NCBI GenBank assembly: GCA_016871615.1
Contig: VHCX01000034.1
Location: 1-36,651, forward strand
Length of the DNA stretch: 36,651 nucleotides
Source: Verrucomicrobiota bacterium
Lineage (GTDB): Bacteria; Verrucomicrobiota; Verrucomicrobiia; Limisphaerales; UBA9464
Direction of reading: 5' to 3'
Positions within the stretch are counted from its first letter, which is position 1, and every line of letters starts with the position of its first letter. The position numbers and the translations under genes were made by a program. Of this stretch, positions 8,869-36,325 are shown piece after piece. The notes beneath the pieces are model-generated. The model saw only the letters and a program-made list of their open reading frames with translations, made no database searches and had not been told where the DNA came from.

Positions 8869-10356
8869 TCAAGCCCCCTCGACGGCCGCGGCCAGCAGCG
8901 ACTCCTCGCACCACTCCACGGCGGGCCTCAGCGCCACGAGCCGACCCCGATGGAACACCCCGATGGTGTCGCAGACGCCCAGGAGTTCGGGCAGGTAGCT
9001 GCTGGCCATGACCACGGCCCGGCCCGCCGAGGCGGCCGCGTCGATCTGCCGGTAGAGGTGCACCTTGCTGCCCACATCAATCCCCCGGGTCGGCTCGTCG
9101 AGCAGCAGCACCTGCGACCCATGATACATCAGCCGACCGAAGGCCACCTTCTGCTGGTTGCCCCCGGACAACTCCCCGACCGTCTGCGTCGGACCATGGG
9201 CGCGGATGTCCAGGGGCTCCATCCACGAGCGCGCCTCCCGCCGTTCCGAGGGCGGATGCCAGAACCCCCACCGGACCAGCGCCCCCGGCCGGGTGATGAG
9301 GAGGTTTTCCGCGACGCTCCGGGCCAGCAGCAGACCGTCGTCCTTCCGGTTCTCGCTCAGGAATCCCAGGCCCGCCTGCCACCGCTCGCGCGGCGAACGG
9401 CCCGACAGGTCGACATCATTCAGGCGGACTTCCCCCGACCGCGCCGCATCGAGGCCGAACGCCGCCCGCAGGGTCTCGGTCCGACCGGCGCCGACGAGAC
9501 CGAAGAGCCCGAGCACCTCGCCCTCGCGCAGGCGGAAGCTCACCTCCCGCGGCTTGTCGACACCCCCGAGGGCGCGGACGTCGAGCACCACCCGGCCCGG
9601 TGAACGCGGGCTCCGGGGATACAGCTCGTGGACGTCCCGGCCGACCATGGTCCGGATCAGGGTGCTGTTCGGGGTGTCGGCGAGATCGCCCGAGGCCACG
9701 CTCGCCCCGTCGCGCAGCACGGTGAATCGCGAGCAGACGCGGCGCGATTCCTCGAGGAAATGCGACACGTACAGCAGGCTGACGTCCTCGGCGCGCAACC
9801 GGTCCAGGACGGCGAAGAGGTGCTCGGTGTCGGCACGGGTCAGGCTGGAGGTCGGCTCGTCAAGGATCAGCACCCGGGGCTTCGACCGCAGGGCCCGGGC
9901 GATCTCCACCAGCTGCTGCTGGGCGATGGGGAGTTCCCCGGAGACGGCATCCAGCGGGATGTCCCCGGCACCCAGGTGCCGCAGGGCCTCGGTGGCCAGC
10001 GCCCGTTGGCTGGCACGATCGACCCAACCCCAGCGCGACGGCTCCTCGCCGAGCGTGATGTTCTCGGCCACCGAGAGATGCGGTGCGAGGTTGAGCTCCT
10101 GGTGGATCATCGCCACCCCGGCCCGCTGGGCGGCGATCGGCCCGGCCGGCCGATAGGGCGTGCCCTCGAGGGTCATCGTGCCAGCGTCGGCCGCATGAAC
10201 GCCCCCGAGGATCCTCAGGAGCGTGCTTTTTCCCGCCCCGTTCTCGCCGATGAGCGCGTGGGCCTCGCCCGCCGCAAGCGACAGGCTGACTCCCCGCAGC
10301 GCTTGGGTGGCACCGAAGGACTTCCGGATTCCGTCGAGTTCGAGGCGGGTGGACAC
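8869..10356 (-). CDS. Sugar ABC transporter ATP-binding protein (RbsA/MglA type, two ATPase domains)
   Basis: A 495-residue protein with two fused nucleotide-binding domains, as in ribose, galactose and xylose importers of the CUT2 class. Domain 1 has Walker A GENGAGKST near 37-45, Walker B VLILDEPTSSL, and an altered signature GELPIAQQQLVEIARAL. Domain 2 has the degenerate P-loop typical of this class (GLVGAGRTE), then LSGGNQQKVAFGRLM and LLLDEPTRGID. The start codon is GTG (10354-10356). No permease or binding-protein gene lies next to it on either side, so within this window it is an orphan component. Its partners may be elsewhere, or immediate neighbours may have been lost. Confidence 0.92.
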   Translation of the reverse strand: MSTRLELDGIRKSFGATQALRGVSLSLAAGEAHALIGENGAGKSTLLRILGGVHAADAGTMTLEGTPYRPAGPIAAQRAGVAMIHQELNLAPHLSVAENITLGEEPSRWGWVDRASQRALATEALRHLGAGDIPLDAVSGELPIAQQQLVEIARALRSKPRVLILDEPTSSLTRADTEHLFAVLDRLRAEDVSLLYVSHFLEESRRVCSRFTVLRDGASVASGDLADTPNSTLIRTMVGRDVHELYPRSPRSPGRVVLDVRALGGVDKPREVSFRLREGEVLGLFGLVGAGRTETLRAAFGLDAARSGEVRLNDVDLSGRSPRERWQAGLGFLSENRKDDGLLLARSVAENLLITRPGALVRWGFWHPPSERREARSWMEPLDIRAHGPTQTVGELSGGNQQKVAFGRLMYHGSQVLLLDEPTRGIDVGSKVHLYRQIDAAASAGRAVVMASSYLPELLGVCDTIGVFHRGRLVALRPAVEWCEESLLAAAVEGA

Positions 10357-10492
10357 GGGGAAACGTCACGATCCCGGCCCGACGCATCGAGGGGGCACGT
10401 CCCCCTGGACCGGCCCGGGAATTCGTGACGAGCAACCTAGCGATCCGGGACCGGAGGCTTCAAGCTCGGCCCAGCGTCCGTCACGCCCCGCA

Positions 10493-11299
10493 ATGGAGAG
10501 CGTCCCCCCATCCACCTCCCACCCGCCGCGTCTGGGCCTCAATCGAGGCGGTTACCGGGGTGAGCAGGTCGAGGCCTCCCGCCTGATGCGCGAGATCCGG
10601 TTGGCGGCCGGGCACGCCGGGTTCTCCGAACACTCGACCGGCATCGGCGACCACGAACTGGTCTTCCTGTCACGCCTCGGTCGCCCAGGACCCCGGTTCT
10701 ACCTCTCGGCCGGCATCCATGGGGACGAACCCGCCGGACTGGTGGCCTTGCGCGACCTGATGGTCGAGGACGCCTGGCCGGCAGACCTGAACCTCGGCAT
10801 CTGTCCCTGCCTCAACCCGCAAGGCTACGCCCTGGGCACGCGCGAAAACGCCTTCGGACTTGACCTCAACCGCGACTACCGCCAACCCCGCTCCGCCGAG
10901 GTGCGCCGCCACCAGGAGTGGCTGGCCTCGCTGCCGCCCTGGGACCTGTCGATCTGCCTGCACGAGGACTGGGAAGCGCACGGGTTCTACCTCTACGAAC
11001 TGAACCCGGCCCACCTGCCATCCCTCGCCGACGCCATCCTCGACTCCGTCCGTCCCGTCTGCCCGATCGACCATTCGCCGTGGATCGACGGACGCGAGAC
11101 CACCGCGCCGGGCCTCATCCGACCCACCGTCGACCCCGCCCGGCGGCCGGACTGGCCCGAGTCGTTCTGGCTGCTCCAGAACGGCTGCCGCCAGGGCTAC
11201 ACCCTCGAAGCCCCCTCCGACTGGCCCCTCCCCACCCGCGCCCACGCCCTCCGCCTCGCCGTCCACGCCGCCGCCAAAGGGGTCGGTCCTCACTATTGA
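10493..11299 (+). CDS. M14-family zinc peptidase / AgmA-succinylglutamate desuccinylase-like protein
   Basis: A 268-residue cytoplasmic zinc hydrolase of the M14 carboxypeptidase superfamily, which includes murein tripeptide amidase (MpaA) and aspartoacylase-like enzymes. Zinc ligands are H76 and E79 in GIHGDEPAG and H157 in ICLHEDWE. Substrate-binding Asn-Arg is at 126-127 in GLDLNRDYR, and the catalytic Glu is likely E239 in GYTLEAPS. No signal peptide is seen from the ATG at 10493. The last few residues (GVGPHY) and the stop codon come from a 26-bp dispersed repeat (11279-11304), so the natural C terminus may have been replaced. Substrate is undetermined. Confidence 0.82.
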   Translation: MESVPPSTSHPPRLGLNRGGYRGEQVEASRLMREIRLAAGHAGFSEHSTGIGDHELVFLSRLGRPGPRFYLSAGIHGDEPAGLVALRDLMVEDAWPADLNLGICPCLNPQGYALGTRENAFGLDLNRDYRQPRSAEVRRHQEWLASLPPWDLSICLHEDWEAHGFYLYELNPAHLPSLADAILDSVRPVCPIDHSPWIDGRETTAPGLIRPTVDPARRPDWPESFWLLQNGCRQGYTLEAPSDWPLPTRAHALRLAVHAAAKGVGPHY

Positions 11300-11304
11300 C
11301 ACAA
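11279..11304 (+). repeat. Dispersed 26-bp element, copy 1
   Basis: Exact 26-bp match to 21671-21696, beginning GGGGTCGGTCCTCACTATTG and ending ACACAA. It overlaps the last seven codons of the M14 peptidase gene and provides its TGA (11297-11299). Confidence 0.85.
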
Positions 11305-11424
11305 CCTTCCCCTGCCGGCGCCCCTGACGGGCCGCCTGCCCATCGGCGCAGCCAGAGCCCACCAAGCCCGGCCGACGCATCGGGGCCTGCCCAAAGCCCG
11401 CCTGCGCCGCACGCGGGTCCAGCC

Positions 11425-11455
11425 CGCGTGACGCCCGCCGCAGGCGGCCTCTTTT
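11425..11455 (+). terminator. Weak hairpin plus short T-run
   Basis: Between the peptidase gene and recF, GCCCGCC and GGCGGCC flank a three-base loop (one internal mismatch), followed by CTCTTTTC. It may act as a weak intrinsic terminator for the peptidase transcript. The stem is short, so confidence is low. Confidence 0.3.
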
Positions 11456-11495
11456 CTTCGACACCCCGGGGCGGGCCTCCCACACTCCACACCCG

Positions 11496-12593
11496 ATGCA
11501 CCTGTCCCGGCTCAAGCTGCGCGACTTCCGGAATTACGCCCGGTTGGACGTCGAGTTCGGACCGGGCTGCCATGTGCTGCTGGGCGACAACGCCCAGGGC
11601 AAGACCAACATCCTTGAGGCCATCTACCTCATCGCCACCCTCCGGTCGTTCCGGGGCTGCGGCGGGGCGCAGATGATCCGGCAGGGCGCCAAGGGCTACT
11701 TCGTGGGAGGATCCGTCGTCGCTCAGGGGGTCCATGAGGTCAAGGCCTACTGGTCGCCCAAGGAACGGCGGCTCTCCCTCGACGAGCGCCCCATCCGGCG
11801 GTTGGCCGAGTATTTCGGCGTCCTGCGCGCGGTGGTGTTCTGCTCCGAGGACCTCGCCCTCGTGAAGGGGCCGGCCCAGGGCCGCCGCAGGTTCCTCGAC
11901 CTGCTGCTCGCCCAGACGGTGCCCGGGTATCTCGCCCTGCTGATGCGCTACGCCAAGGCCCTCCGGTCACGCAACGCGCTGCTCAAGCAGTCGATGGTCG
12001 ACCTCATCGAGCTGGATGGCTTCACCCGGGAGCTGGTGCTCGCGGGCGAGGCGCTGATCACCGCCAGGCGCGACTTCGTCCCGAACCTGGCCCCGCGGGT
12101 CCACGCCGCGTTCCGGCGGATCGCCTCCCAGCACGACGAGCTCACCCTGGAGTACCACCCCGGTGTGACGGGGGATTTTGCCGTCGCCCTCGCGCAGTCC
12201 CAGGCGCGCGAGCGGGTGATGAAGACCACCGTGGTCGGGCCCCACCGCGACGACCTGACCCTCCGGGTGAATGAGCGCGCCGCCGCCCCCTTCACGAGCG
12301 AGGGACAGAAGCGCACGCTGGCGATCGCGCTCAAGCTGGCGCAGGCGGAGCACCTGGCCTCGGTGCACGGCACCCCTCCCTTGCTGCTGATCGACGATGT
12401 CATGGGCGAACTGGATGCCCGACGGCGGGCGGCCTTCGTGCCGCTGCTCCAGGGAGCGTTCCGAGCCGGCGGGCAGGTGTTCATGACCTGCACGGAGGAG
12501 AACTGGCCGCGCCAACTGGATTGCGAGCTGATCCGCTGGCGGGTGCAACAGGGCCGGCTCTCGCCCGGGAACGGCGGACCCGACGAGGAATGA
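11496..12593 (+). CDS. recF: DNA replication/repair protein RecF
   Basis: An ATPase of the SMC-like ABC type that helps load RecA at single-strand gaps. In 365 residues it shows the RecF N-terminal motif LKLRDFRNYARLDVEF, Walker A GDNAQGKTN (30-38), the ABC signature TSEGQKRTLAIALKLAQ, and Walker B LLLIDDVMGELDARRR. The length is normal. The ATG at 11496 is immediately followed by the family-typical MHLSRLKLRDF. RecF often sits with dnaA/dnaN/gyrB, but here none of these is adjacent. It ends 39 bp from a convergent gene with a hairpin between. Confidence 0.95.
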   Translation: MHLSRLKLRDFRNYARLDVEFGPGCHVLLGDNAQGKTNILEAIYLIATLRSFRGCGGAQMIRQGAKGYFVGGSVVAQGVHEVKAYWSPKERRLSLDERPIRRLAEYFGVLRAVVFCSEDLALVKGPAQGRRRFLDLLLAQTVPGYLALLMRYAKALRSRNALLKQSMVDLIELDGFTRELVLAGEALITARRDFVPNLAPRVHAAFRRIASQHDELTLEYHPGVTGDFAVALAQSQARERVMKTTVVGPHRDDLTLRVNERAAAPFTSEGQKRTLAIALKLAQAEHLASVHGTPPLLLIDDVMGELDARRRAAFVPLLQGAFRAGGQVFMTCTEENWPRQLDCELIRWRVQQGRLSPGNGGPDEE

Positions 12594-12599
12594 AGCCGA

Positions 12600-12625
12600 C
12601 AGCCCGGGTGCCGCCCGGGACGCTG
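12600..12625. terminator. GC-rich hairpin at a convergent junction
   Basis: CCCGGG (12603-12608), loop TGCCG, CCCGGG (12614-12619). CAG and CTG extend the stem across a three-base bulge. It lies between the stops of recF and the minus-strand secreted protein gene. There is no T-run, so it is a termination or mRNA-end-protecting structure by position only. Confidence 0.4.
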
Positions 12626-12632
12626 GCAATCG

Positions 12633-13550
12633 TCAGCGGGCGCGCGGAGCCCCGGCCGGCGGCAGGATCGGCGCCATCGGCAGACCGCTGGTGCCCGGGG
12701 CCCCGGAGACGCGGTTGGTCCCGCCGGCCTGGGCTTCGTTGGGCGGCGACACGTCGTTCGGGCCGGGACGCCGCGTGGCCCTCACGACCGCCACGTCGCC
12801 GGTGCCGTCCACGCCGAGGATTGGCCGGCCCACCCGGGACACGTAGGTGTGCCGGATCGAGACCGTGCCATCGGGCTGGATACGGTGATGCACGAAGTCG
12901 TCGGAACCGTACTGATGGAGGATGTGCAACCGGTTCTGCGGATCGAGCGCCATGGCCGGAGGATTGAAGGAGACGACGGTGCCCAGCGGGATCACATGGT
13001 GCGTCACGGACGCCTCCGGATTGCTGATGACGGCGAAGATGCGTGCGCGCCGGAGGTAGTTGGCCTGCAGGATGGCGTACCGCCGGCGTTCACCGCCCCC
13101 GCCCACGACCCCGAATTCCCGCTCCCAAAGGACCACCCCGTGCATGATCTCCATCTCGACAGGAGCGGTCACCACATGAGTCTCGCCGGGGCCGGTGAAC
13201 ACGGTGGCCGTCACCTGGTAGCGGCCGATCTCCTCGATCCGGAACAGCGGCGTCAGGTCGAATCTCAGCGTGCCGCGGGCCCCCGTCTTGAGGGTGAAGG
13301 AGCCCGTCTCGTCCATCTCCGCCTTACGGGCCACCCCGGCGCCCGAGACGTTCTCGATGTTGAAGCGGATCCAGTCGGGCCTGTCCCCGAGGCGAAGCGG
13401 GGCCCCGGTGAAGTTGGCGATGCGGACCTTGACCTCTGCCTTCTCGCCCGGGAGGAACTTGTCCTGCTCGAACTCCAGCTTCACGTCCACCTGGGCCCGG
13501 GCCACCAGCGCGAGCAGGAACAACGGAAACCAACGAAAGAGACGGTGCAC
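12633..13550 (-). CDS. Secreted protein of unknown function
   Basis: A 305-residue protein that begins with a GTG codon (13548-13550) and the signal peptide MHRLFRWFPLFLLALVARAQ. The mature N terminus (VDVKLEFEQDKFLPGEKAEVKVRI) reads like an immunoglobulin-like beta-sandwich of the kind that caps larger secreted proteins, followed by about 130 residues of beta-rich sequence with repeated short segments (LDPQNRLHILHQYG, GTVSIRHTYVSRVG). The C-terminal 40 residues are rich in Pro, Gly and Ala and are probably disordered. I do not recognise the family. The LamG-fold gene lies 47 bp upstream on the same strand, so the two may form an envelope-protein operon. Confidence 0.75.
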   Translation of the reverse strand: MHRLFRWFPLFLLALVARAQVDVKLEFEQDKFLPGEKAEVKVRIANFTGAPLRLGDRPDWIRFNIENVSGAGVARKAEMDETGSFTLKTGARGTLRFDLTPLFRIEEIGRYQVTATVFTGPGETHVVTAPVEMEIMHGVVLWEREFGVVGGGGERRRYAILQANYLRRARIFAVISNPEASVTHHVIPLGTVVSFNPPAMALDPQNRLHILHQYGSDDFVHHRIQPDGTVSIRHTYVSRVGRPILGVDGTGDVAVVRATRRPGPNDVSPPNEAQAGGTNRVSGAPGTSGLPMAPILPPAGAPRAR

Positions 13551-13597
13551 GACTCAGAGTCTAGTGGGCGGGTCCGCTCTTGGGAAGGACCGTGCGG

Positions 13598-14470
13598 TCA
13601 CCGGCGCCTGCGATGCAGGTCGGCCACCCCGCCGGGCAGGCGGTGGAGCGCCGCGACCTCGTCGGCAGAAAGGGCCCGGTCGAAGACAGCCAAGTCATCC
13701 ATCCAGCCCGTGTATCCCAATCCCAGCATCATCACCACCTCCTCCGCCTTCCAGGTGTAGGTGTGGTTCCGCTCGGTCAACGAGCCGGCCGGCTGGCCGT
13801 CCAGATACAACGCCACCTTCCCGTCGGCGCGCCCCGAGTTGAACCGGTCGAGGGTGAAGACCACCTGATGCCATTCCTCCCGACGGAACGGCGGCCGGGT
13901 GACCACCACCAGGGGCTTCTCGGCCAGCGGCATCTTGTCCCAGTCGCGACCCTCCGGGTTCCACACCTTCTTGTCCGCATAGGCCCCGAGGCGCAGGTGC
14001 TTGGGAAGATCCTCCGGCGTGAACTCGACGAACAGGGCCGCGTCGTCCCAGGCCTTGGAGGTGATCTGGATGACGTCGGAGTATTCCTTGGGGATGTCGA
14101 GTTCGGGGGTCGTCCTCAGCCAGAACGCCACGGTCGCGGACCAGGTGTTGGAGCTCCACGGGAAGTTGCCAGCGGCCCGGAAACCCACCACCTGGGGGAT
14201 CTTCTTCTCGAAGCGCAGCCCACCGCCATGGCGCCCCCCCTTGGGATCGATCCAGACGGCCCCGTTGGTCGGCAGGCCGGGCGAGGTGGCCCTGGGGGCG
14301 TCCCACTTGGGACCGGTCTGGAACCGCCGGTCGCCGCCGCCCACGACGGCATCGGCCGTCTGGTCGAAGGGCGCGTGGAACACCAGCGACGCGGCCAGCT
14401 TGGCCGGCGCCTTGGCGGAGAGTCCGGGGGTGAGCAGGACGAGCGGGAGGATCAGTCCGAGGAAGCGCAT
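13598..14470 (-). CDS. Secreted LamG/concanavalin-like jelly-roll domain protein
   Basis: A 290-residue exported protein. The signal peptide is MRFLGLILPLVLLTPGLSA. The rest fits a LamG-like fold (Laminin_G_3 family): AVWIDPKGGRHGGGLRFEKK as an early strand pair, WSATVAFWLRTTPE in the core, EEWHQVVFTLDRFNSGRADGK and KVALYLDGQPAGSL as the diagnostic strands, and GWMDDLAVFDRALSADEVAALH at the end. Such domains bind glycans or serve as adhesive modules. The last residues are Arg-rich (HRRRR). It is divergent from mqnE, with about 100 bp between the two starts that must hold both promoters. The role in this organism is unknown. Confidence 0.85.
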   Translation of the reverse strand: MRFLGLILPLVLLTPGLSAKAPAKLAASLVFHAPFDQTADAVVGGGDRRFQTGPKWDAPRATSPGLPTNGAVWIDPKGGRHGGGLRFEKKIPQVVGFRAAGNFPWSSNTWSATVAFWLRTTPELDIPKEYSDVIQITSKAWDDAALFVEFTPEDLPKHLRLGAYADKKVWNPEGRDWDKMPLAEKPLVVVTRPPFRREEWHQVVFTLDRFNSGRADGKVALYLDGQPAGSLTERNHTYTWKAEEVVMMLGLGYTGWMDDLAVFDRALSADEVAALHRLPGGVADLHRRRR

Positions 14471-14571
14471 GGCGTGATCCTGCGCGATCGACCGCCCGCT
14501 GGGAACCCCCTTCCTGCCGGCGAATCCCGTCTGCCCGCACGCCTGAAGCCCCGGGTTGCGCCCCGCCGAGA

Positions 14572-15780
14572 ATGCTGTTTCCTAGGCCCGTGGATGTGTT
14601 CAACGGCCCCGAGGGCCTCCAGGACGTTCGGGACAAGGTGGTGGCGGGCGAGCGGCTGACCCCGGAGGACGGCCTGCGCCTGTTCCAGTCCCGGGACCTC
14701 AACGGCCTGGGCACCTTGGCCGACTTCGCCAACCGCCGCCGCAATGGCCGGAGGGCCTCCTACATTCTCAACCGCTACATCAACTACTCGAACTACTGCA
14801 TCCTGAGCTGCCAGTTCTGCGCCTTCAGCCGCAAAAAACGCGACAACGACGGATTCCAGCTCACGGAGGAGCAGATGGTCGCCAAGGCCCGGGAGGCCCT
14901 GGCGATCGGCATCACCGAGCTGCACATCGTCGGCGGACTGCACCCCTCCCTGCCCTTTTCCTACTACACGGGCTTCCTGCGCGCCCTCAAGGCCGTGGAC
15001 CCCAGGCTCCAGCTCAAGTGCTTCACGGCGGTGGAGATCCTCCACCTGGCCTGGCTAGCACGGAAGAGCGTCCGCGACACGCTGATCGAGCTGAAGGAGG
15101 CCGGCCTCGAATCGCTCACCGGAGGTGGCGCCGAGATTTTCCGCAAGGAGGTCCGGAGCAGGATCGCCACCGGCAAGGAGAGCGCCGACGAGTACCTCGC
15201 GGTGCATGACACCTGGCACGCGCTGGGAGGCCGAAGCACCTGCACGATGCTCTACGGCCATGTGGAATTGCCCGAGGACCGCATCGACCACCTGGACCAG
15301 TTGCGCCGGCAGCAGGACCGGTCGGGCGGCTTCACCGGCTTCATCCCCCTGCCCTACCAGCCCGACAACAACCGCATCCCCGTCCGCCATGGACCGAGCG
15401 GCTTCGACCAACTGCGCACGCTGGCCGTGTCGCGGCTGTACCTCGACAACATCGACCACATCACCGCCTACTGGGTGGGCATGGGGCTCAAGATGGCCCA
15501 GATCGCCCTGAGCCACGGGGCCGACGATGTGCACGGGACCATCGTGGAGGAGCACATCTTCCACATGGCCGGGGCCAGGTCGCCGCAGGGCACGGCCGAG
15601 CGCGACCTCGTACGGGCCATCCGCGAGGCCGGACGCATCCCCGTCCAGCGCAACACCTTCTACGAGCCGGTCCGCATCTGGGACGAGGCCGACGCCTCGG
15701 CGCCCTCCGACCCGTCCTACGAAGGAGCGCCGGCGGCCGAGGCATCCGCCGGGTCCCCTATCCCGTTTGCGCTGGCCTGA
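14572..15780 (+). CDS. mqnE: Aminofutalosine synthase MqnE (radical SAM)
   Basis: Radical SAM enzyme of the futalosine route to menaquinone, joining a chorismate-derived enolpyruvyl benzoate to the adenosyl group to form aminofutalosine. The cluster-binding motif is CxxxCxxC at C76, C80 and C83 (YCILSCQFCAFSRKKRD). The motif LTGGGAEIFRKEVR and the following HDTWHALGGRSTCTMLYGH distinguish MqnE from its relatives MqnC and CofH. The 402 residues include about 25 extra at the C terminus, rich in Ala, Ser and Pro. No other mqn gene lies in the window. The Shine-Dalgarno sequence is weak. A dgt gene follows after 29 bases. Confidence 0.94.
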   Translation: MLFPRPVDVFNGPEGLQDVRDKVVAGERLTPEDGLRLFQSRDLNGLGTLADFANRRRNGRRASYILNRYINYSNYCILSCQFCAFSRKKRDNDGFQLTEEQMVAKAREALAIGITELHIVGGLHPSLPFSYYTGFLRALKAVDPRLQLKCFTAVEILHLAWLARKSVRDTLIELKEAGLESLTGGGAEIFRKEVRSRIATGKESADEYLAVHDTWHALGGRSTCTMLYGHVELPEDRIDHLDQLRRQQDRSGGFTGFIPLPYQPDNNRIPVRHGPSGFDQLRTLAVSRLYLDNIDHITAYWVGMGLKMAQIALSHGADDVHGTIVEEHIFHMAGARSPQGTAERDLVRAIREAGRIPVQRNTFYEPVRIWDEADASAPSDPSYEGAPAAEASAGSPIPFALA

Positions 15781-15809
15781 GGCGCCGAGGTCGCGGACCG
15801 TCCTGCGTC

Positions 15810-16964
15810 ATGCCGGTCGACCGATCAGAGCTGCAGGCCCGGGAACACCAGTTCCTGGCCCCCTACGCGCAGCGGAGTTCCGAAAGCCGCGGCCGCGTGC
15901 ACGCCGAGGGCCCACCGACCTGGCGCACCGAGTTCCAGCGGGACCGCGACCGGGTCATCCACAGCCGGGCCTTCCGGCGACTGGAGTACAAGACCCAGGT
16001 CTTCCTCAACGGCTCGGGCGACCACCTGCGCACGCGCCTCACCCACACCATGGAGGTGGCCGCCATCAGCCGGAACATCGCCCGGGCCCTCCGCCTGAAC
16101 GAGGATCTCGCGGAGACCATCGCCCTCGCCCACGACCTTGGGCACTCGCCCATCGGTCACAAGGGCGAGTCGATGCTCGATCGGCTCATGAAGGACCACG
16201 GCGGCTTCGAGCACAACCGGCAGAGCCTGCGCGTGGTCGAGGAACTGGAGCGGAAGTATCCGCGGTTCCCGGGCCTCAACCTGACCTGGGACGTGCGTGA
16301 GGGCCTCGCCAAGCACGGGGTGGCCTTCGAGTCGGTCGACGGAACCCGCCGCCGGCGCCACCATCAGGCCTCGCTCGAGGCCCAGCTGGCCAACCTCGCC
16401 GACGAGATCGCCTACTACAGCCACGACCTTGACGACGGCCTCGACAGCAGCCTGCTCGACGAGAAGAAGCTGCTCAAGGAGGTCCAGGTCTGGGCCAAGG
16501 CCGCCCGGGCCGTGAAGCGCCAGTTCGGGGAGCTTCCCGCCGAGAGCCGGCGCTATTACACGATCCGCCAGATCATCGACCAGCAGGTCGTCGACGTGGT
16601 CCAGACCACCGAGGCCCAGGTCCTCGAGGCCGGCTTGCGCTCGGCCGACGACGTCCGCACCCACCGGCGGGCCCTGGTCCAGTACAGCCCCGAGCGCCGG
16701 CTCGAGAACCTGGAATTGCGCAAGTACCTATACCGGAACCTCTACTACCACCCGGTGGTGGCCGAGCCCAACAACCGCGCCATCCGGATGCTCAGCGAGG
16801 TCTTCCAGACCTACCTGGCGCATCCCGAGGAGCTGGGGGCCGCGGCCCGCAAACGCATCCCCGTCGACGGACTGCACCGGGCCGTCTGCGACTACGTCGC
16901 CAGCATGACCGACCGGTATCTCATCGGGGAACACCACCGGCTCTTTGGGCTGACCCTCGGCTGA
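15810..16964 (+). CDS. dgt: dGTP triphosphohydrolase
   Basis: An HD-domain metal-dependent hydrolase cleaving dGTP (and in many species other dNTPs) to the nucleoside and triphosphate, limiting dNTP pools. The 384-residue sequence has RAFRRLEYKTQVF near 54-65, the first His of the metal site in RLTHTMEVAAIS (H79), the HD pair in LAHDLGHSPIGHKGE (H108, D109) and downstream EIAYYSHDLDDG, which supplies the last metal-binding Asp. Length is that of the shorter Deinococcus/Thermus-like group rather than E. coli Dgt (505). It follows mqnE closely and precedes the TonB receptor by 42 bp. Confidence 0.93.
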   Translation: MPVDRSELQAREHQFLAPYAQRSSESRGRVHAEGPPTWRTEFQRDRDRVIHSRAFRRLEYKTQVFLNGSGDHLRTRLTHTMEVAAISRNIARALRLNEDLAETIALAHDLGHSPIGHKGESMLDRLMKDHGGFEHNRQSLRVVEELERKYPRFPGLNLTWDVREGLAKHGVAFESVDGTRRRRHHQASLEAQLANLADEIAYYSHDLDDGLDSSLLDEKKLLKEVQVWAKAARAVKRQFGELPAESRRYYTIRQIIDQQVVDVVQTTEAQVLEAGLRSADDVRTHRRALVQYSPERRLENLELRKYLYRNLYYHPVVAEPNNRAIRMLSEVFQTYLAHPEELGAAARKRIPVDGLHRAVCDYVASMTDRYLIGEHHRLFGLTLG

Positions 16965-17006
16965 ACCCCGCCCCGGGGACCCGACGGAAGGACCCCTCCA
17001 GTCTGC

Positions 17007-19277
17007 ATGATCCAGCGCGGATGCCACAACGCCCCTCGGCCGATCCTGTGCCGGGCGGCCTGCTGCCTGGTCCTCGCGGTCCGGACGGCCGCCGCGGATG
17101 GATCCGGGACCGGGCCGGACCAGCCGCCTCGGCCATCCCGCGACAGCCTGCCGCCCGTGGTCGTCACGGGCTCCGACAGCCCGCTGCCGCTGGTCGACGC
17201 CCCGGTGCGCATGGAGGTGATCGGGGCGGAATCGATCACCGCCACCCGCTCGCCCAGGCTGGCCGATGCCGTCGAGTGGGCCACGGGCCTCCGCGTGGAA
17301 TCGAACTGCCAGAACTGCAACACCTCCGAGATCCGCATGCTCGGGCTGCAGCAACGCTACGTCTCCATCCTCACCGACGGACTTCAGTCCTTCTCCAGCC
17401 TGGCCGGCGTGTACGGCATCGAGCAGATCCCGATGGCCACCATCGACCGGATCGAGATCGTGAAGGGGGGAGGATCGACCCTCCATGGTCCGGGCGCGGT
17501 GGCCGGCGTCGTCAACATCGTCCCGCGCGATCCCCGCCTCCGGCGCTTCACCTTCGAGGCGAACACCGCCGTCATGGAGGGCCATCGGAGCGGATCGGCA
17601 CCGAATCTCGATGTGGGTGGCGTCTGGGAATTCGTGCCCGAGCGCGGCGACTGGGGCGTGCTGCTGCACGGCGTGCACGGGTCCACGCAGGCGGTCGATG
17701 TCGACGGCGATGGCTTCACCGAGGTGGCGCGTCGCCGGCTCGATGCCGGAGGCCTCCGCTTCGTGGCCCGGCCGTTCCCGGAGTCAAGGCTGGTGCTCGA
17801 CTACTCGCGCGCGTCCGAGGGGCGGCGCGGTGGCGAGGCCGGCGAGGGTCTCGACGTGCCCCCGAACGAGGCCCTGCTGGCCGAGGCCATCGACACCGTC
17901 CGCGACACGGGGACCGTCCAGTTCCGCAGCGAGGCCGGCGAGTCGACCGCGTTCCAGGCGGGCGTCACCGCATCGGCCACCGGGCGCGACAGCCACTACG
18001 GCGGCATCGCAGCCCTCGGCCACGCGCCCCCGGGATCGCCAGGCCACGACCCCGGGGTGATGGCAAGGCTGGCTGCGCGCCGGCCCGGGATCGCTCCGGC
18101 GGTGGCCGATCCGGCCGGTCCCTTCTTCAACCCCGCGTGGACCCCGGGGCTGGGCTTTGGGCGGACCGACAACCTCCTGGTGATGAGCGAGGCCGTCGCC
18201 TCGACCCGGATCGGCGACAGCCACCGGTTGGGCTACGGGGCCCAGTGGCGGCATGAGACGATCGAGGACCGTCAGGAGGGACTCGGCCGCGCGGTCGGGG
18301 CGACCTATGACAACGTGGGGGTGTTCCTCCAGGACGAATGGTCGCCCGACGAGCGCTGGAGCCTCATGGCCGGGACCCGCCTCGACCGTCACTCGGAGAT
18401 CGCCAACCCCATCCTCTCGCCACGGGGAGCCCTCCGGTACAGCCCATCGAAGAGCCTCGACTGGCGTCTGGCGGTCTCCACGGGTTTCCGGGCCCCGGAG
18501 GTGTTCGACGAGGACCTCCACATCGCCAACGTGGGCGGGGCCCTTGAGGTGGTCCGCCTGGCCCAGGACCTGGCCCAGGAATCCTCCGTGACGGTCACCT
18601 TCGGACCGGACTGGCGATTCGGGGAGGGAGGCCGCTGGCGACTCGACGGGAACCTGTTCCACACCGGACTCCGGGACGTCTTCTTCATCGATCCGGGGTC
18701 CGACGACCCGGCCACCCCGGACGTCATCGAGTCCACCAAAGGCAACCGGGGTGCGGCACAGGTCTTCGGGCTGGAGCTGAACCTCGGCGCCCGGTTCGGG
18801 GATTTCCTCGGCCAGATCGGCTACGTCGAGCAACGCAGCCGCTACGGCGAGGATCAGCTGCTCATCGGGACCGTGGGGGATCCGGTGGACAATCCGGTCT
18901 TCAGCCGGGACTTTGAGCGGACGCCGGAGCGCTACGGCGTGGGACGGATCACCTACGACGACGGGCGCTGGTCGGCCTTCCTCGGCGGCAAGCTCACCGG
19001 CCCGATGGCGGTGCCCCACAACCTCAACGACGCCCAGACCGGGCAGCGCCTGCGCAACGTGCTGTCGGAGTCGCCCTGGTTCTTCGCCGTGGACATCGGC
19101 CTGGGGCGCACCTGGACGCCCACCGGGCGGATGAGGCTCACGGCCTCCGTGGGCGTCCGGAACCTCTTCAACACCTTCCAGGACGACCTCGATGCCGGAC
19201 CATTCCGGGATCCGGCCTACGTCTATGGCCCTCGGTTCCCACGCACGCCGTACCTCGGCCTGAAACTTGAGTTCTGA
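17007..19277 (+). CDS. TonB-dependent outer-membrane receptor with a CxxC plug motif
   Basis: A 756-residue outer-membrane transporter. A short signal region (to about residue 30) is followed by a TonB-box-like PPVVVTGSD at 49-57 and a plug domain to about 170. IEIVKGGGSTLHGPGAVAGVVNI is split across the conserved plug end, and the barrel closes with the terminal Phe in LGLKLEF. The plug contains NCQNC with C101 and C104 in a segment (NTSEIRMLGLQQRYVSILTDG) that in some receptors is preceded by a redox-like or metal-linked pair. No ligand-binding or ABC partner gene is adjacent. Substrate is unknown; a metal or metal-chelate is one possibility. Confidence 0.9.
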   Translation: MIQRGCHNAPRPILCRAACCLVLAVRTAAADGSGTGPDQPPRPSRDSLPPVVVTGSDSPLPLVDAPVRMEVIGAESITATRSPRLADAVEWATGLRVESNCQNCNTSEIRMLGLQQRYVSILTDGLQSFSSLAGVYGIEQIPMATIDRIEIVKGGGSTLHGPGAVAGVVNIVPRDPRLRRFTFEANTAVMEGHRSGSAPNLDVGGVWEFVPERGDWGVLLHGVHGSTQAVDVDGDGFTEVARRRLDAGGLRFVARPFPESRLVLDYSRASEGRRGGEAGEGLDVPPNEALLAEAIDTVRDTGTVQFRSEAGESTAFQAGVTASATGRDSHYGGIAALGHAPPGSPGHDPGVMARLAARRPGIAPAVADPAGPFFNPAWTPGLGFGRTDNLLVMSEAVASTRIGDSHRLGYGAQWRHETIEDRQEGLGRAVGATYDNVGVFLQDEWSPDERWSLMAGTRLDRHSEIANPILSPRGALRYSPSKSLDWRLAVSTGFRAPEVFDEDLHIANVGGALEVVRLAQDLAQESSVTVTFGPDWRFGEGGRWRLDGNLFHTGLRDVFFIDPGSDDPATPDVIESTKGNRGAAQVFGLELNLGARFGDFLGQIGYVEQRSRYGEDQLLIGTVGDPVDNPVFSRDFERTPERYGVGRITYDDGRWSAFLGGKLTGPMAVPHNLNDAQTGQRLRNVLSESPWFFAVDIGLGRTWTPTGRMRLTASVGVRNLFNTFQDDLDAGPFRDPAYVYGPRFPRTPYLGLKLEF

Positions 19278-19285
19278 TCGCGCGC

Positions 19286-19311
19286 CAGGTCCTCGAGCCG
19301 CCTCGGACCTG
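19286..19311. terminator. Perfect 7-bp hairpin at a convergent junction
   Basis: CAGGTCC (19286-19292) pairs with GGACCTG (19305-19311) across a twelve-base loop, filling most of the 36 bp between the TonB receptor stop and the acyl-CoA synthetase stop. No T-run follows in either direction. Confidence 0.4.
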
Positions 19312-19313
19312 CG

Positions 19314-20792
19314 TCAATGTCCCCGGGCGAGCATCTCCCGCAGGGCCGTCTTGAGGATCTTCCCGGTGGCGTTGCGCGGCAGGGCCGGCAGCACGATGGC
19401 ACGGCGCGGCACCTTGTAGTCGGCCAGGCTTTCCTTCAGGAAGGCGACCAGCGCGTGCTCATCAAGGGTCTTGCCCTCGTCCATCGCCACGAAGGCCACC
19501 GCCCGCTCGCCCCGCCGCTCGCAGGGCTCGCCCACCACGGCGGCCTCGCGGATGCCCGGGAAGCGGTAGATCACCTCCTCGATCTCGCGCGGGTACACGT
19601 TCATGCCGTTGGGCTTGAGCATGTCCTTCTTGCGGTCGGTGATGACGAACCAACCATCGGACCGCCGGTGACCGATGTCGCCGGTCAACAACCAGCCGCC
19701 GCGCAGGGTCTCGGCCGTCTTCTCCGGGGCGTTCCAGTAGCCGAGCATCACATTGGCCCCGCGGACGCAGACCTCGCCGTCCACCCCGTCGGGCAGCGGG
19801 TTGCCGAGATCGTCCTGCACCGTCACCTCAACCCCCGGGATGGGCACGCCGATGGTCCCGGCCTTCGGGTCGCGCGGCGGGTTGACCGTCACCACCGGGC
19901 TGGCTTCGCTGAGGCCGTAGCCCTCGATCAGGGGCACCTTCGGATGCCTGGCCTGGAAGGCGTGGAGGATCTCCATCGGCAGCGGGCCGGCGCCGCTGAC
20001 GCACAGCCGCAGCGAGGTGAACTCGATGCCCGCCGGGATCTGCGACAGCGCCCGGAAGAGCGCCGCCATCGCCGGCAGCAGCGTGCCCCGGTTCTGCAGG
20101 ATCTCGGCGATCATGTGCTTCGGCGAGTGGAGCCCCTGCACGGCCACGACCGAGGCCCCGCTCAACAGGGGCAGCAACAGGCCCACGGTGAGCATGAAGC
20201 TGTGGAACATCGGCAGCAGCACCACCAGTCGGTCGTCTTCCGACAGTTCGAGGAAGACGCGGCAGGAGGCGACATTCCCGAGCAGGTTGCGGTGCGATAG
20301 CATCGCTCCCTTCGGATGCCCGGTCGTGCCGCTGGTGTAGATGAGCACGGCCAGGTCGTCGCCCCCGCGGGACGGAGCCGGCACCTCGGCGGCGGCGGTC
20401 GGCAGGGATCCCGCGGCCTGGACCTGGAGTCCCGGGCGCAACGCCCTCAATTCCGGGAGCCCGGCATGGCCCTCCTCGGCGATGACCCAGTCGATCCCGG
20501 CATCCTGCAGCATGTAGGCCACTTCGGCCGGCTTGAGGAAGTTGTTGATGGGCACGAGCACCGCGTCGGCGGCGAGCACGCCGAACATCGCACCCACGAA
20601 TTCCGGGCAGTTCCGCAGCCAGACTGCGACGCGATCCCCGGGGCGGATGCCGAGGGCCCTGAGCCGGGCCGCCGTCCCGAGCACCTGGTCCCGGTACTGG
20701 CCGTAGGTGAAGCGCGACTCGCCCCAGAACAGGGCCGTCTTGCCGGCATGGGCGGTGGCGGTCTCGAGGAAGGCGGAGGCGATGTCGTTCAT
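19314..20792 (-). CDS. Long-chain fatty acid-CoA ligase-type AMP-dependent synthetase
   Basis: A 492-residue adenylate-forming enzyme that activates carboxylic acids as acyl-AMP and then usually acyl-CoA. The P-loop-like motif is LIYTSGTTGHPKGAML (150-164), with GYGLSEASPVVTV in the middle, TGDIGHRRSDGWFVITDRKKDM as the hinge region, and the C-terminal catalytic lysine in LPRNATGKILKTAL. The ATG at 20792 gives a canonical start; a longer in-frame extension does not match. The probable pyrophosphorylase gene lies 80 bp upstream on the same strand. Its role may be fatty-acid activation, and the LuxE/LuxC genes 1 kb away act on the same class of substrate. Confidence 0.92.
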   Translation of the reverse strand: MNDIASAFLETATAHAGKTALFWGESRFTYGQYRDQVLGTAARLRALGIRPGDRVAVWLRNCPEFVGAMFGVLAADAVLVPINNFLKPAEVAYMLQDAGIDWVIAEEGHAGLPELRALRPGLQVQAAGSLPTAAAEVPAPSRGGDDLAVLIYTSGTTGHPKGAMLSHRNLLGNVASCRVFLELSEDDRLVVLLPMFHSFMLTVGLLLPLLSGASVVAVQGLHSPKHMIAEILQNRGTLLPAMAALFRALSQIPAGIEFTSLRLCVSGAGPLPMEILHAFQARHPKVPLIEGYGLSEASPVVTVNPPRDPKAGTIGVPIPGVEVTVQDDLGNPLPDGVDGEVCVRGANVMLGYWNAPEKTAETLRGGWLLTGDIGHRRSDGWFVITDRKKDMLKPNGMNVYPREIEEVIYRFPGIREAAVVGEPCERRGERAVAFVAMDEGKTLDEHALVAFLKESLADYKVPRRAIVLPALPRNATGKILKTALREMLARGH

Positions 20793-20872
20793 GGCGGGGC
20801 GTTCCTGGGGTGGGAATCGAAAGGGTCCTGGGCAAGGCGGGCCGATGCAACCGGCCCGGGCGGTCCGGTCGC

Positions 20873-21622
20873 TCAGCGTCGGGCGAAGATCCGGTTGGCC
20901 TCGGCCAGCGTCTCCTTCGACCCGATGTCGTACCAGATGCCCGGCACGCTCCAGGTCATCACCGGCGTGCGCGGGTACATCCACTGGATGAGCCGGCCGG
21001 GCTGGTCGGGATTGTTGCCCTCGGCCAGGTATTGGCGGATCGAGGCGAGGTGGTGGCGCGGGTAGTAGTACAGGGCGATGCCGATGAGGGTGCTGGCCGG
21101 CTCGGCGGGTTTCTCGACAAAGCTCGTGATCCGCCCGGTGTCATCGATGTCCACGACGCCGTACTTGCGGGCCTGCTCGAGGCTGCCCACATCGTACACC
21201 CCCAGCACCGGCCCGTTGTGCGAGCGGCAATACTGGCCAAAGCCGCGGAGGCTCTGGTTGAAGAGATTGTCACCGGCCACCACGATCAGGTCGTCGTCCA
21301 GGCTTTCCTGTTCCAGCACGAGGTTCAGGTCGCCGATGGCCCCCAGCTTGTTGGAATCGTCCGTCGAGCCATCGTTGATCACCGAGAACCGGAACGGGTG
21401 CTGCGAGGCCCGCCGATAGGCCTCGGACCACTGCGAGAAGTGCCCGGAGAACTTCGCGTTGCTCACCACGAACACCTCGTCGATGCCCCCGATCGGCGCC
21501 AGGTTGTCCATCACGTAGTCGATCATCGGCTTGCCCGCCACCGGCAGCAGCGGCTTCGGCTGGGTCAGCGTCAACGGATACAGCCGCGTGGCATAACCTG
21601 CGGCTAGAATGAGCACCTTCAT
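20873..21622 (-). CDS. NDP-sugar pyrophosphorylase (nucleotidyltransferase)
   Basis: A 249-residue sugar nucleotidyltransferase of the RmlA/GlmU-N type, which forms an NDP-sugar from NTP and a sugar-1-phosphate. The signature LAAGYATRLYPLTLTQPKPL followed by LPVAGKPMIDYVMDN is intact, VVAGDNLF carries the metal-binding Asp, and VVDIDDTGRITSFVEKP lines the sugar site. A glycosylation or envelope role is likely, but the sugar is not fixed by sequence. The start at 21622 is the ATG immediately before the signature. The promoter region is shared with the divergent luxE-like gene and contains copy 2 of the 26-bp element. Confidence 0.9.
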   Translation of the reverse strand: MKVLILAAGYATRLYPLTLTQPKPLLPVAGKPMIDYVMDNLAPIGGIDEVFVVSNAKFSGHFSQWSEAYRRASQHPFRFSVINDGSTDDSNKLGAIGDLNLVLEQESLDDDLIVVAGDNLFNQSLRGFGQYCRSHNGPVLGVYDVGSLEQARKYGVVDIDDTGRITSFVEKPAEPASTLIGIALYYYPRHHLASIRQYLAEGNNPDQPGRLIQWMYPRTPVMTWSVPGIWYDIGSKETLAEANRIFARR

Positions 21623-21670
21623 GGAGACCCCGACGGTATGCCAAGCCCCCGGTTTCTCCACATCGAAAAT

Positions 21671-21696
21671 GGGGTCGGTCCTCACTATTGACACAA
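21671..21696 (+). repeat. Dispersed 26-bp element, copy 2
   Basis: Exact copy of the sequence at 11279-11304. It lies in the 249-bp space between the divergent pyrophosphorylase and LuxE-like genes, about 50 bp upstream of the former start. Three As precede it within a few bases in both copies. Confidence 0.85.
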
Positions 21697-35971: not shown

Positions 35972-36325
35972 GGGGGCGTACCGGTTTCGACTAGGTGATC
36001 CTGCCCGGGATGGCATGCCGAGGATGATTCGTTGGCCTCGTAAAACATCGGATCAAACACATAACTGCTAACGAAGAGTTGGCTCTCGCGGCCTAATCGG
36101 CCCGACGTTTCGCCCTGAACACCTGCTACGGGGACGAAACGCCATCAGCAGGCATGATCGGCGCCGGAGTCCGCGCGTCGTCGGTCGAGAACCTTCATGC
36201 GGGCTGAGCGAAATCGGTCCCTGTCGGCCGGCCACGATTTCGCCGAGAACCTTGGCTGACTAAGCATGTAGTCGTTTCGGGTTGAATGGCTTAGGACGCG
36301 GGTTCAATTCCCGCCGCCTCCACCA
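35972..36325 (+). ncRNA. ssrA: Transfer-messenger RNA (tmRNA)
   Basis: A one-piece tmRNA. The 5' end GGGGGCGTACCGGTTTCGAC pairs with the 3' CGCCTCC before ACCA (7-bp acceptor stem with one G-U), and the T-arm is GCGGG TTCAATT CCCGC. The tag frame starts at the resume codon GCT (36067-36069), reads ANEELALAA and stops at TAA (36094-36096); the C-terminal LALAA is the usual protease-recognition end. CCA is encoded (36323-36325). The RNA rescues stalled ribosomes with SmpB. Confidence 0.95.
36301..36325 (+). other. Candidate integration (att) core at the 3' end of ssrA
   Basis: The T-arm/acceptor-stem 3' end of tmRNA is a standard integrase target. Here it is followed within about 60 bp by an integrase-like N-terminal remnant. 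The partner att copy, if any, lies beyond the window. Confidence 0.35.

Follow-up and report, generated by a model that had tools for sequence, protein, structure and literature searches.

A dispersed 26-nucleotide repeat in a Verrucomicrobiota genome resembles the terminal inverted repeat of a RAYT-like Y1/HUH transposase

The stretch of DNA analyzed here (the window, 36,651 nucleotides [nt] of contig C34 from a Verrucomicrobiota bacterium) contains two copies of a 26-mer, GGGGTCGGTCCTCACTATTGACACAA, at positions 11279 to 11304 and 21671 to 21696, which are identical at 26/26 nt; when one mismatch is allowed, the match extends to 29 nt (11276 to 11304 and 21668 to 21696, both on the + strand). 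Copy 1, in which AAA precedes the 26-mer, is read with its GGGG head first and has a TTGACA inner edge at 11296 to 11301. It overlaps the 3' end of an open reading frame (ORF; 10223 to 11299, +) with an AstE/AspA-like catalytic domain (PF24827), for which it encodes the final residues GVGPHY (protein tail AAKGVGPHY) and provides the TGA stop codon at 11297 to 11299. The start of this gene is uncertain, with 10223 as the start of the ORF and 10493 as the start in the gene calls, and a recF-like gene with SMC_N and AAA matches (11496 to 12593, +) lies downstream of the copy. Copy 2, with TTGACA at 21688 to 21693, is intergenic, lying 48 nt from the start of a nucleotidyltransferase gene (PF00483; 20873 to 21622, -; start placed by homologues) and, on its other side, 175 nt from a LuxE-like gene (PF04443; 21872 to 22972, +). 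A first-pass annotation of the window had reported an identical 26-bp sequence at these positions, at gene edges and in unrelated contexts; the coordinates, the identity, and the difference between the two neighborhoods are all confirmed, and the description of the sites as gene edges is a fair one.

The recurrence of the 26-mer in the window is not due to chance, and in 100 shuffles we never found two matches; a search of the whole window at up to 3 mismatches of the 20-mer found no third copy. The first-pass annotation had suggested a mobile or regulatory repeat family and had proposed that an absence of other copies, in this genome and in related ones, would point to chance or a recent local duplication. 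We found 62 places with up to 3 mismatches of a 21-nt core in the window's own genome (G000; 3.83 Mb, 183 contigs), of which 41 match exactly; 35 are forward and 27 reverse, and as a control, the same core read backwards had no match there. In addition, 21 of 58 relatives contain a 22-mer at up to 3 mismatches, with a single match, in G024, for the backwards control. That there are only two copies in the window would fit a chance match or a recent duplication between the two sites, but this explanation can practically be dismissed given the 62 places in the genome, the empty reversed control, and the occurrence of copy 2 at the matching site in G010, the nearest relative.

For further analysis, we used a working set of 63 copies (up to 4 mismatches, window included) in the stretches around the genome matches. 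The conserved unit spans about AAAGG to ACACAA (consensus AAAGGGGTCGGTCC...), and its motif has the main form GGGGTCGG, with G at position 7; an A is found at this position in 14% of the copies. The copies are placed mainly outside genes: 52 are intergenic, 8 lie over a 3' end (one of them from the opposite strand), 2 over a 5' start, and 1 within a gene, in fetched DNA that is 86% coding according to a home-made gene caller seeded with the window ORFs, most of which are Pfam supported. One of the two 5'-start cases is window copy 2, which is intergenic once homologues set the start of the neighboring gene at 21622. In this set, 35 copies stand alone and the others form 13 groups of two or three, and some copies are closely paired in inverted orientation, as the first-pass annotation had proposed to ask.

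In the same genome, Y1_Tnp (PF01797) has ten match rows, which fall in seven gene loci. We found that one of these genes, on contig C6 (match at C6:52501-52836), lies between inverted copies of the repeat at C6:51890 (+) and C6:52900 (-), which have their heads outward, and that the ends of this element are identical and inverted over 33 nt (CCAAAGGGGTCGGTCCTCACTATTGACACAACT). Thus, copies of the repeat flank a RAYT-like Y1/HUH gene (RAYT, repetitive extragenic palindromic [REP]-associated tyrosine transposase), which was one of the checks that the first-pass annotation had suggested, and its mobile-family reading is supported by both the additional copies and this arrangement. Among the 15 pairs of neighboring copies less than 220 nt apart, 13 likewise have their heads outward, as do the repeats around the transposase gene, and six of the 15 are compact, with 27 to 28 nt from start to start. 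The explanation that we favor, with a probability of roughly 0.87, is that a RAYT-like Y1/HUH transposase of the TIRYT type has this sequence as its terminal inverted repeat (TIR), and that the 26-mer represents a dispersed TIR standing alone.

This system can be compared with known ones. RAYT-like genes between TIRs, some of which have a GGGGWSAS motif at about equal distance from the gene, have been described, and some of these TIRYT/TIRtron repeats form moderately abundant dispersed families of singles, dimers, and groups (PMC3733652); the gene between inverted repeats and the dispersed singles and dimers that we observed are like those. In a separate classification, 20 of 26 TIRYTs fall in TnpAY1 subclass 2.1, in which no REP-like sequences were found (PMC6006769). 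The transposases studied here share with this subclass the NH[YF]H and Y[IV]HLNP motifs, which are present in all 29 proteins (HuH motif NHFH in 27 and NHYH in 2; YVHLNP in 27 and YIHLNP in 2), as well as a long C-terminal extension and an absence of REP-like secondary structure next to the gene. The protein has 316 amino acids, compared to a subclass median of 238. For the relative L105, an AlphaFold model has confidently predicted C-terminal helices (block pLDDT of 74 to 89 over residues 241 to 310), with a modest overall value of 60.3, and among solved structures its best match is 4er8, a RAYT of E. coli (E value, 8e-4; TM score, 0.30 by query). The closest named records, near full length and at 60 to 63% identity, mostly have Verrucomicrobia labels (one subdivision 3 and one Pedosphaera sp.) among the best 80 of 559 matches, and judging from these records the lineage of repeat and transposase is probably verrucomicrobial.

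Related repeats stand beside related transposases, both within this genome and among its relatives. The transposase encoded on C103 is 59 to 60% identical to that of C6 and has on both sides a sibling repeat, AAAGGGGTCAGTTCTTGATA, found in 14 places genome-wide; the C14 gene, which is truncated by the contig end, also has this sibling repeat, and the other four Y1_Tnp genes (C1, C21, C47, and C76) are 22 to 27% identical to these. A GGGGTCAG form of the motif, which fits GGGGWSAS, is seen in the sibling repeat and in some dimers. Transposase homologues (E value of 1e-20 or better) are present in 31 of the 58 relatives, and inverted repeats scoring at least 15 on both sides were found at 19 of 41 transposase loci, two of which are from the own genome; L108 was considered as a twentieth but dropped, as its match is an inverted piece of the gene. 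In these 19 loci, at least one arm contains GGGGTC (14 loci), GGGTC (3 loci), or GTGTC (2 loci), and the middle of the repeat is variable. To compare the two distances, we took 43 loci, of which 35 had usable proteins; in 29 of these the left repeat was placed automatically, and in the other six it scored too low. The distances between proteins and between repeats were correlated (Mantel r of 0.654 over 23 positions and 0.590 over the middle 9 positions, with 0 of 5,000 permutations as high in either case; n = 29), in a sample in which at least L093 looks misplaced and common ancestry adds to the correlation. These repeat-transposase pairs add a well-resolved family to the TIRYT class, in which few cases have been described. 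Separately, G008 has sixteen partial transposase matches, many with internal stops, in what is apparently a graveyard of decayed copies.

A single copy folds no better than shuffled sequence on either strand (z of +0.74 and +0.65), whereas the two compact dimers that were folded form perfect 26-bp hairpins of -32.0 and -32.3 kcal/mol (z of -11 and -13). A single-unit hairpin, GTCGGT-CCTCACT-ATTGAC, was considered because its GTC and GAC are constant, and was rejected: it is no better than shuffles, and the main form in G010, CACTTTTGACA, breaks the upper pair. Because a single copy forms no hairpin, the repeat is not a canonical REP. According to a REP/REPIN explanation, the unit itself would be palindromic, with a hairpin and GTAG-type foot read by a group 2/3 RAYT. 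The inverted copies around a RAYT-like gene, the long hairpins of the compact dimers, and the extragenic bias are as expected for such a system, and the repeat is like the REP and TnpAREP of E. coli in being extragenic, in being tied to a Y1 transposase, and in having some copies near stop codons (PMC8266576, PMC12306157). However, the unfolded single copy largely refutes this explanation, neither GTAG nor GTGG is found as a foot in the repeat consensus, and the C6 and C103 proteins score 51.8 and 49.3 bits with the REP-associated transposase model NF047646, both under its cut-off of 80, so that a REP/REPIN is very unlikely; an excess at stops in one orientation, described below, is a further difference from the available account of the E. 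coli repeats. Of the two origins that the first-pass annotation had offered, a REP-like sequence or an end-of-element relic, the second stands, in the form of a TIRYT-type TIR, and the first fails for want of a palindrome in single copies.

The dimers have other features that we record here. Among pairs about 100 nt apart, two spacers of L049 resemble that of L222 and two of L226 are near-identical, but the likeness is limited to these cases, and a spacer family common to such pairs is not supported. In L047, L049, L050, L052, L054, and L058, copies are directly followed by another short, related motif (AAAAGGGGCCAGTCCTCAC, AAAAGGTGCCACACC, and similar). Compact pairs of a variant repeat, GGGTCGGTTCTTACTATTGACA, in G046, a genome of the same order but a different family, have their heads inward (12 pairs, L252-L265), the reverse of the arrangement in G000.

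Several observations weigh against a TIRYT-type TIR. The main form of the motif, GGGGTCGG, is one base off the TIRYT motif GGGGWSAS (PMC3733652), and the C-terminal domain has no Pfam helix-turn-helix (HTH) match, where TnpAY1 subclass 2.1 has a C-terminal HTH (PMC6006769) and our model shows helices. Repeat and transposase are also found apart: G001, G002, G018, G028, and G034, for example, have a homologous transposase and no 22-mer match; G029 (5 places), G026 (1 place), and G035 (1 place) have 22-mer matches and no transposase at 1e-20; and G010, with 21 places, has the transposase only as a piece at a contig end. Finally, movement was not observed, and G000 and G007 have the element at one common place, the C6 locus. 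At this locus (element L031:2484-3528, compared to L076 and L278 of G007), both flanks run in the same direction in the two genomes (82% and 80% identity) and the element between them is in the opposite orientation (84%); G000 also has about 1.4 kb of extra sequence between the element and the right flank. The inversion could have arisen by recombination between the inverted ends or by action of the transposase. For a TIRYT-type family, we propose that the transposase would nick single-stranded DNA at the repeat ends and that single ends, or dimers joined end to end, would be pasted into new, mostly intergenic, places, with the transposase's own gene staying put as its ends disperse.

The inner edge of the repeat looks like part of a promoter for the transposase gene. 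From 114 loci, 98 had a placed start codon and sufficient upstream sequence, and 94 of these, with labels from several phyla, were non-redundant. We found a TTGACA-like hexamer (at least 5/6) 24 to 34 nt before the start codon in 45 of the 94 left ends, compared to 4.7 in shuffles (maximum of 10 in 300), and 36 of these 45 have xAxxxT at a spacing of 16 to 18 nt, compared to 6.4 (maximum of 13 in 500); this putative -10 element mostly ends 6 to 8 nt upstream of the start codon. Among the elements closest to that of C6, the hexamer usually forms the inner edge of the repeat, and a hexamer (at least 5/6) is near the inner edge of 16 of 19 left repeats and 9 of 19 right repeats. These sequences suggest that the transposase gene has a leaderless promoter, with the inner TTGACA serving as its -35 box. 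Because both the xAxxxT test and the range of distances were picked after inspection and the transposase genes are homologous, this reading is a strong lead and not proof. With such a -35 box, the transposase could repress its own gene when bound to its end repeat. Whether REPs drive RAYT expression is described as unknown (PMC3733652), and a leaderless promoter with its -35 box at the inner edge of the repeat would bear on what drives expression of TIRYT transposases. The available part of that account does not describe a TTGACA -35-like edge, and among the papers listed by our literature searches, in short lists that lack most subscription papers, we found none on leaderless promoters of such transposase genes, so that this negative is weak.

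Such promoters would not be unique to transposases, because 8 of 110 ATG-starting predicted genes of the own genome, the C6 transposase and recF genes included, have the hexamer at this position, 6 of them together with xAxxxT. The recF-like gene in the window has TCGACA, 17 nt, and CACACT at 11458 to 11486 (+), followed by ATG at 11496, an arrangement that resembles a leaderless promoter. We also considered the dispersed copies as mobile promoters. Their hexamer is intact in 60 of 63 copies, but xAxxxT is found 16 to 18 nt downstream in only 3 of 63 (null, 5.9), one of which is the transposase gene, and TAxxxT in 0 of 63 (null, 1.1); neither window copy has a -10-like xAxxxT downstream. This possibility was therefore rejected.

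We then compared the sites of the copies with those in relatives. At the site of copy 1, no copy with up to 5 mismatches was found in the stretch examined upstream of recF in 18 other genomes of the genus that have this gene; in 10 of the 18, the same upstream gene has a recognizable tail, which does not end in the repeat, another six contain other DNA, and one has 32 nt of sequence only. The matching place in G010 contains CTCACCATTGAC, with the position of the stop codon unchanged, and this sequence may be a degenerate copy. G010 also has copy 2, with 26/26 nt identity and at an equal distance from the gene, between flanks that are 62/80 and 65/80 identical, and it is absent from the other 16 genomes of the genus that carry the nucleotidyltransferase gene. 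Because copy 2 is kept in G010 and copy 1 may persist there in decayed form, both window copies are probably old insertions, the first of which now ends a gene and the second of which has been kept between genes.

Copies are inherited at fixed sites between these two relatives: 11 of 14 copy-holding stretches of G010 align with a G000 stretch that also holds a copy, and aligned copies at common sites are identical at 23 to 26 of 26 positions in the 16 rows compared. These rows include L233 and L235 (23 and 24 identical positions), which have a dimer or complex as their G000 counterpart, as well as two G003 rows and one G007 row; left out, as not aligned copy to copy, were the four L226 rows, L230 2114, and L234 2105. 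We do not claim this conservation as proof of selection, because the sites were chosen for having a copy in both genomes and the result is in part one of ascertainment.

The placement of copies relative to stop codons was also uneven. In 20 of the 63 copies, the head lies -21 to +12 nt from a stop codon on the same strand, and 13 of the 35 singles (which include both copies around the transposase gene) are placed head first at stops, compared to 7.1% for random extragenic positions; the binomial P value of 4e-7 is descriptive, because the range was set after the distances were inspected. Tail-side placement at stops is seen for 2 singles only. Six copies, including window copy 1, supply an in-frame stop codon after GVGPH (once AVGPH) and then Y, F, or the stop itself. 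In G010, 5 of 22 copies are at stops (null, 8.4%), several of them at sites in common with G000. The pattern is not shown by two more distant genomes, G044 (2 of 17; null, 4.3%) and G046 (0 of 28; null, 5.9%), and stop-codon placement is not supported as a general rule.

The head-first placement at stops, together with the aligned sites and near-identical copies in G010, would be expected if the repeat were an operator or other host signal, such as a 3'-end element, that is selected for regulation and merely contained in the transposase region. Against this, the repeat varies among relatives in step with the transposase, a sibling repeat accompanies the sibling transposase in the same genome, the stop placement is missing in two genomes, downstream -10 sequences are not in excess, and the conservation at common sites is partly ascertainment, making a host signal very unlikely compared to a TIRYT-type TIR. 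The oriented excess at stops, seen here in one genome, is also not described in the available part of the TIRYT account (PMC3733652). In E. coli, ribosomes are reported to stall at those REPs that lie no more than 15 nt from a stop codon (PMC12306157), and the present repeat would provide an independent family for the idea that stop-adjacent repeats affect translation. A fuller and more tentative proposal, which we regard as doubtful in its entirety, is that this is a hairpin-less TIR family whose inner edge serves as the -35 box of a self-repressed leaderless transposase promoter, an arrangement that would occur in several phyla, and whose solitary copies lie head first at stops, end some genes with GVGPHY, and perhaps act at translation termination. 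The promoter and stop-codon patterns, as readings drawn from sequence, are the parts of this analysis that deserve specialist attention.

With regard to the rest of the window, a plasmid search with one window protein gave no match, and at the Rfam gathering threshold the window contains a tmRNA gene alone (35972 to 36325, +; RF00023, 184 bits).

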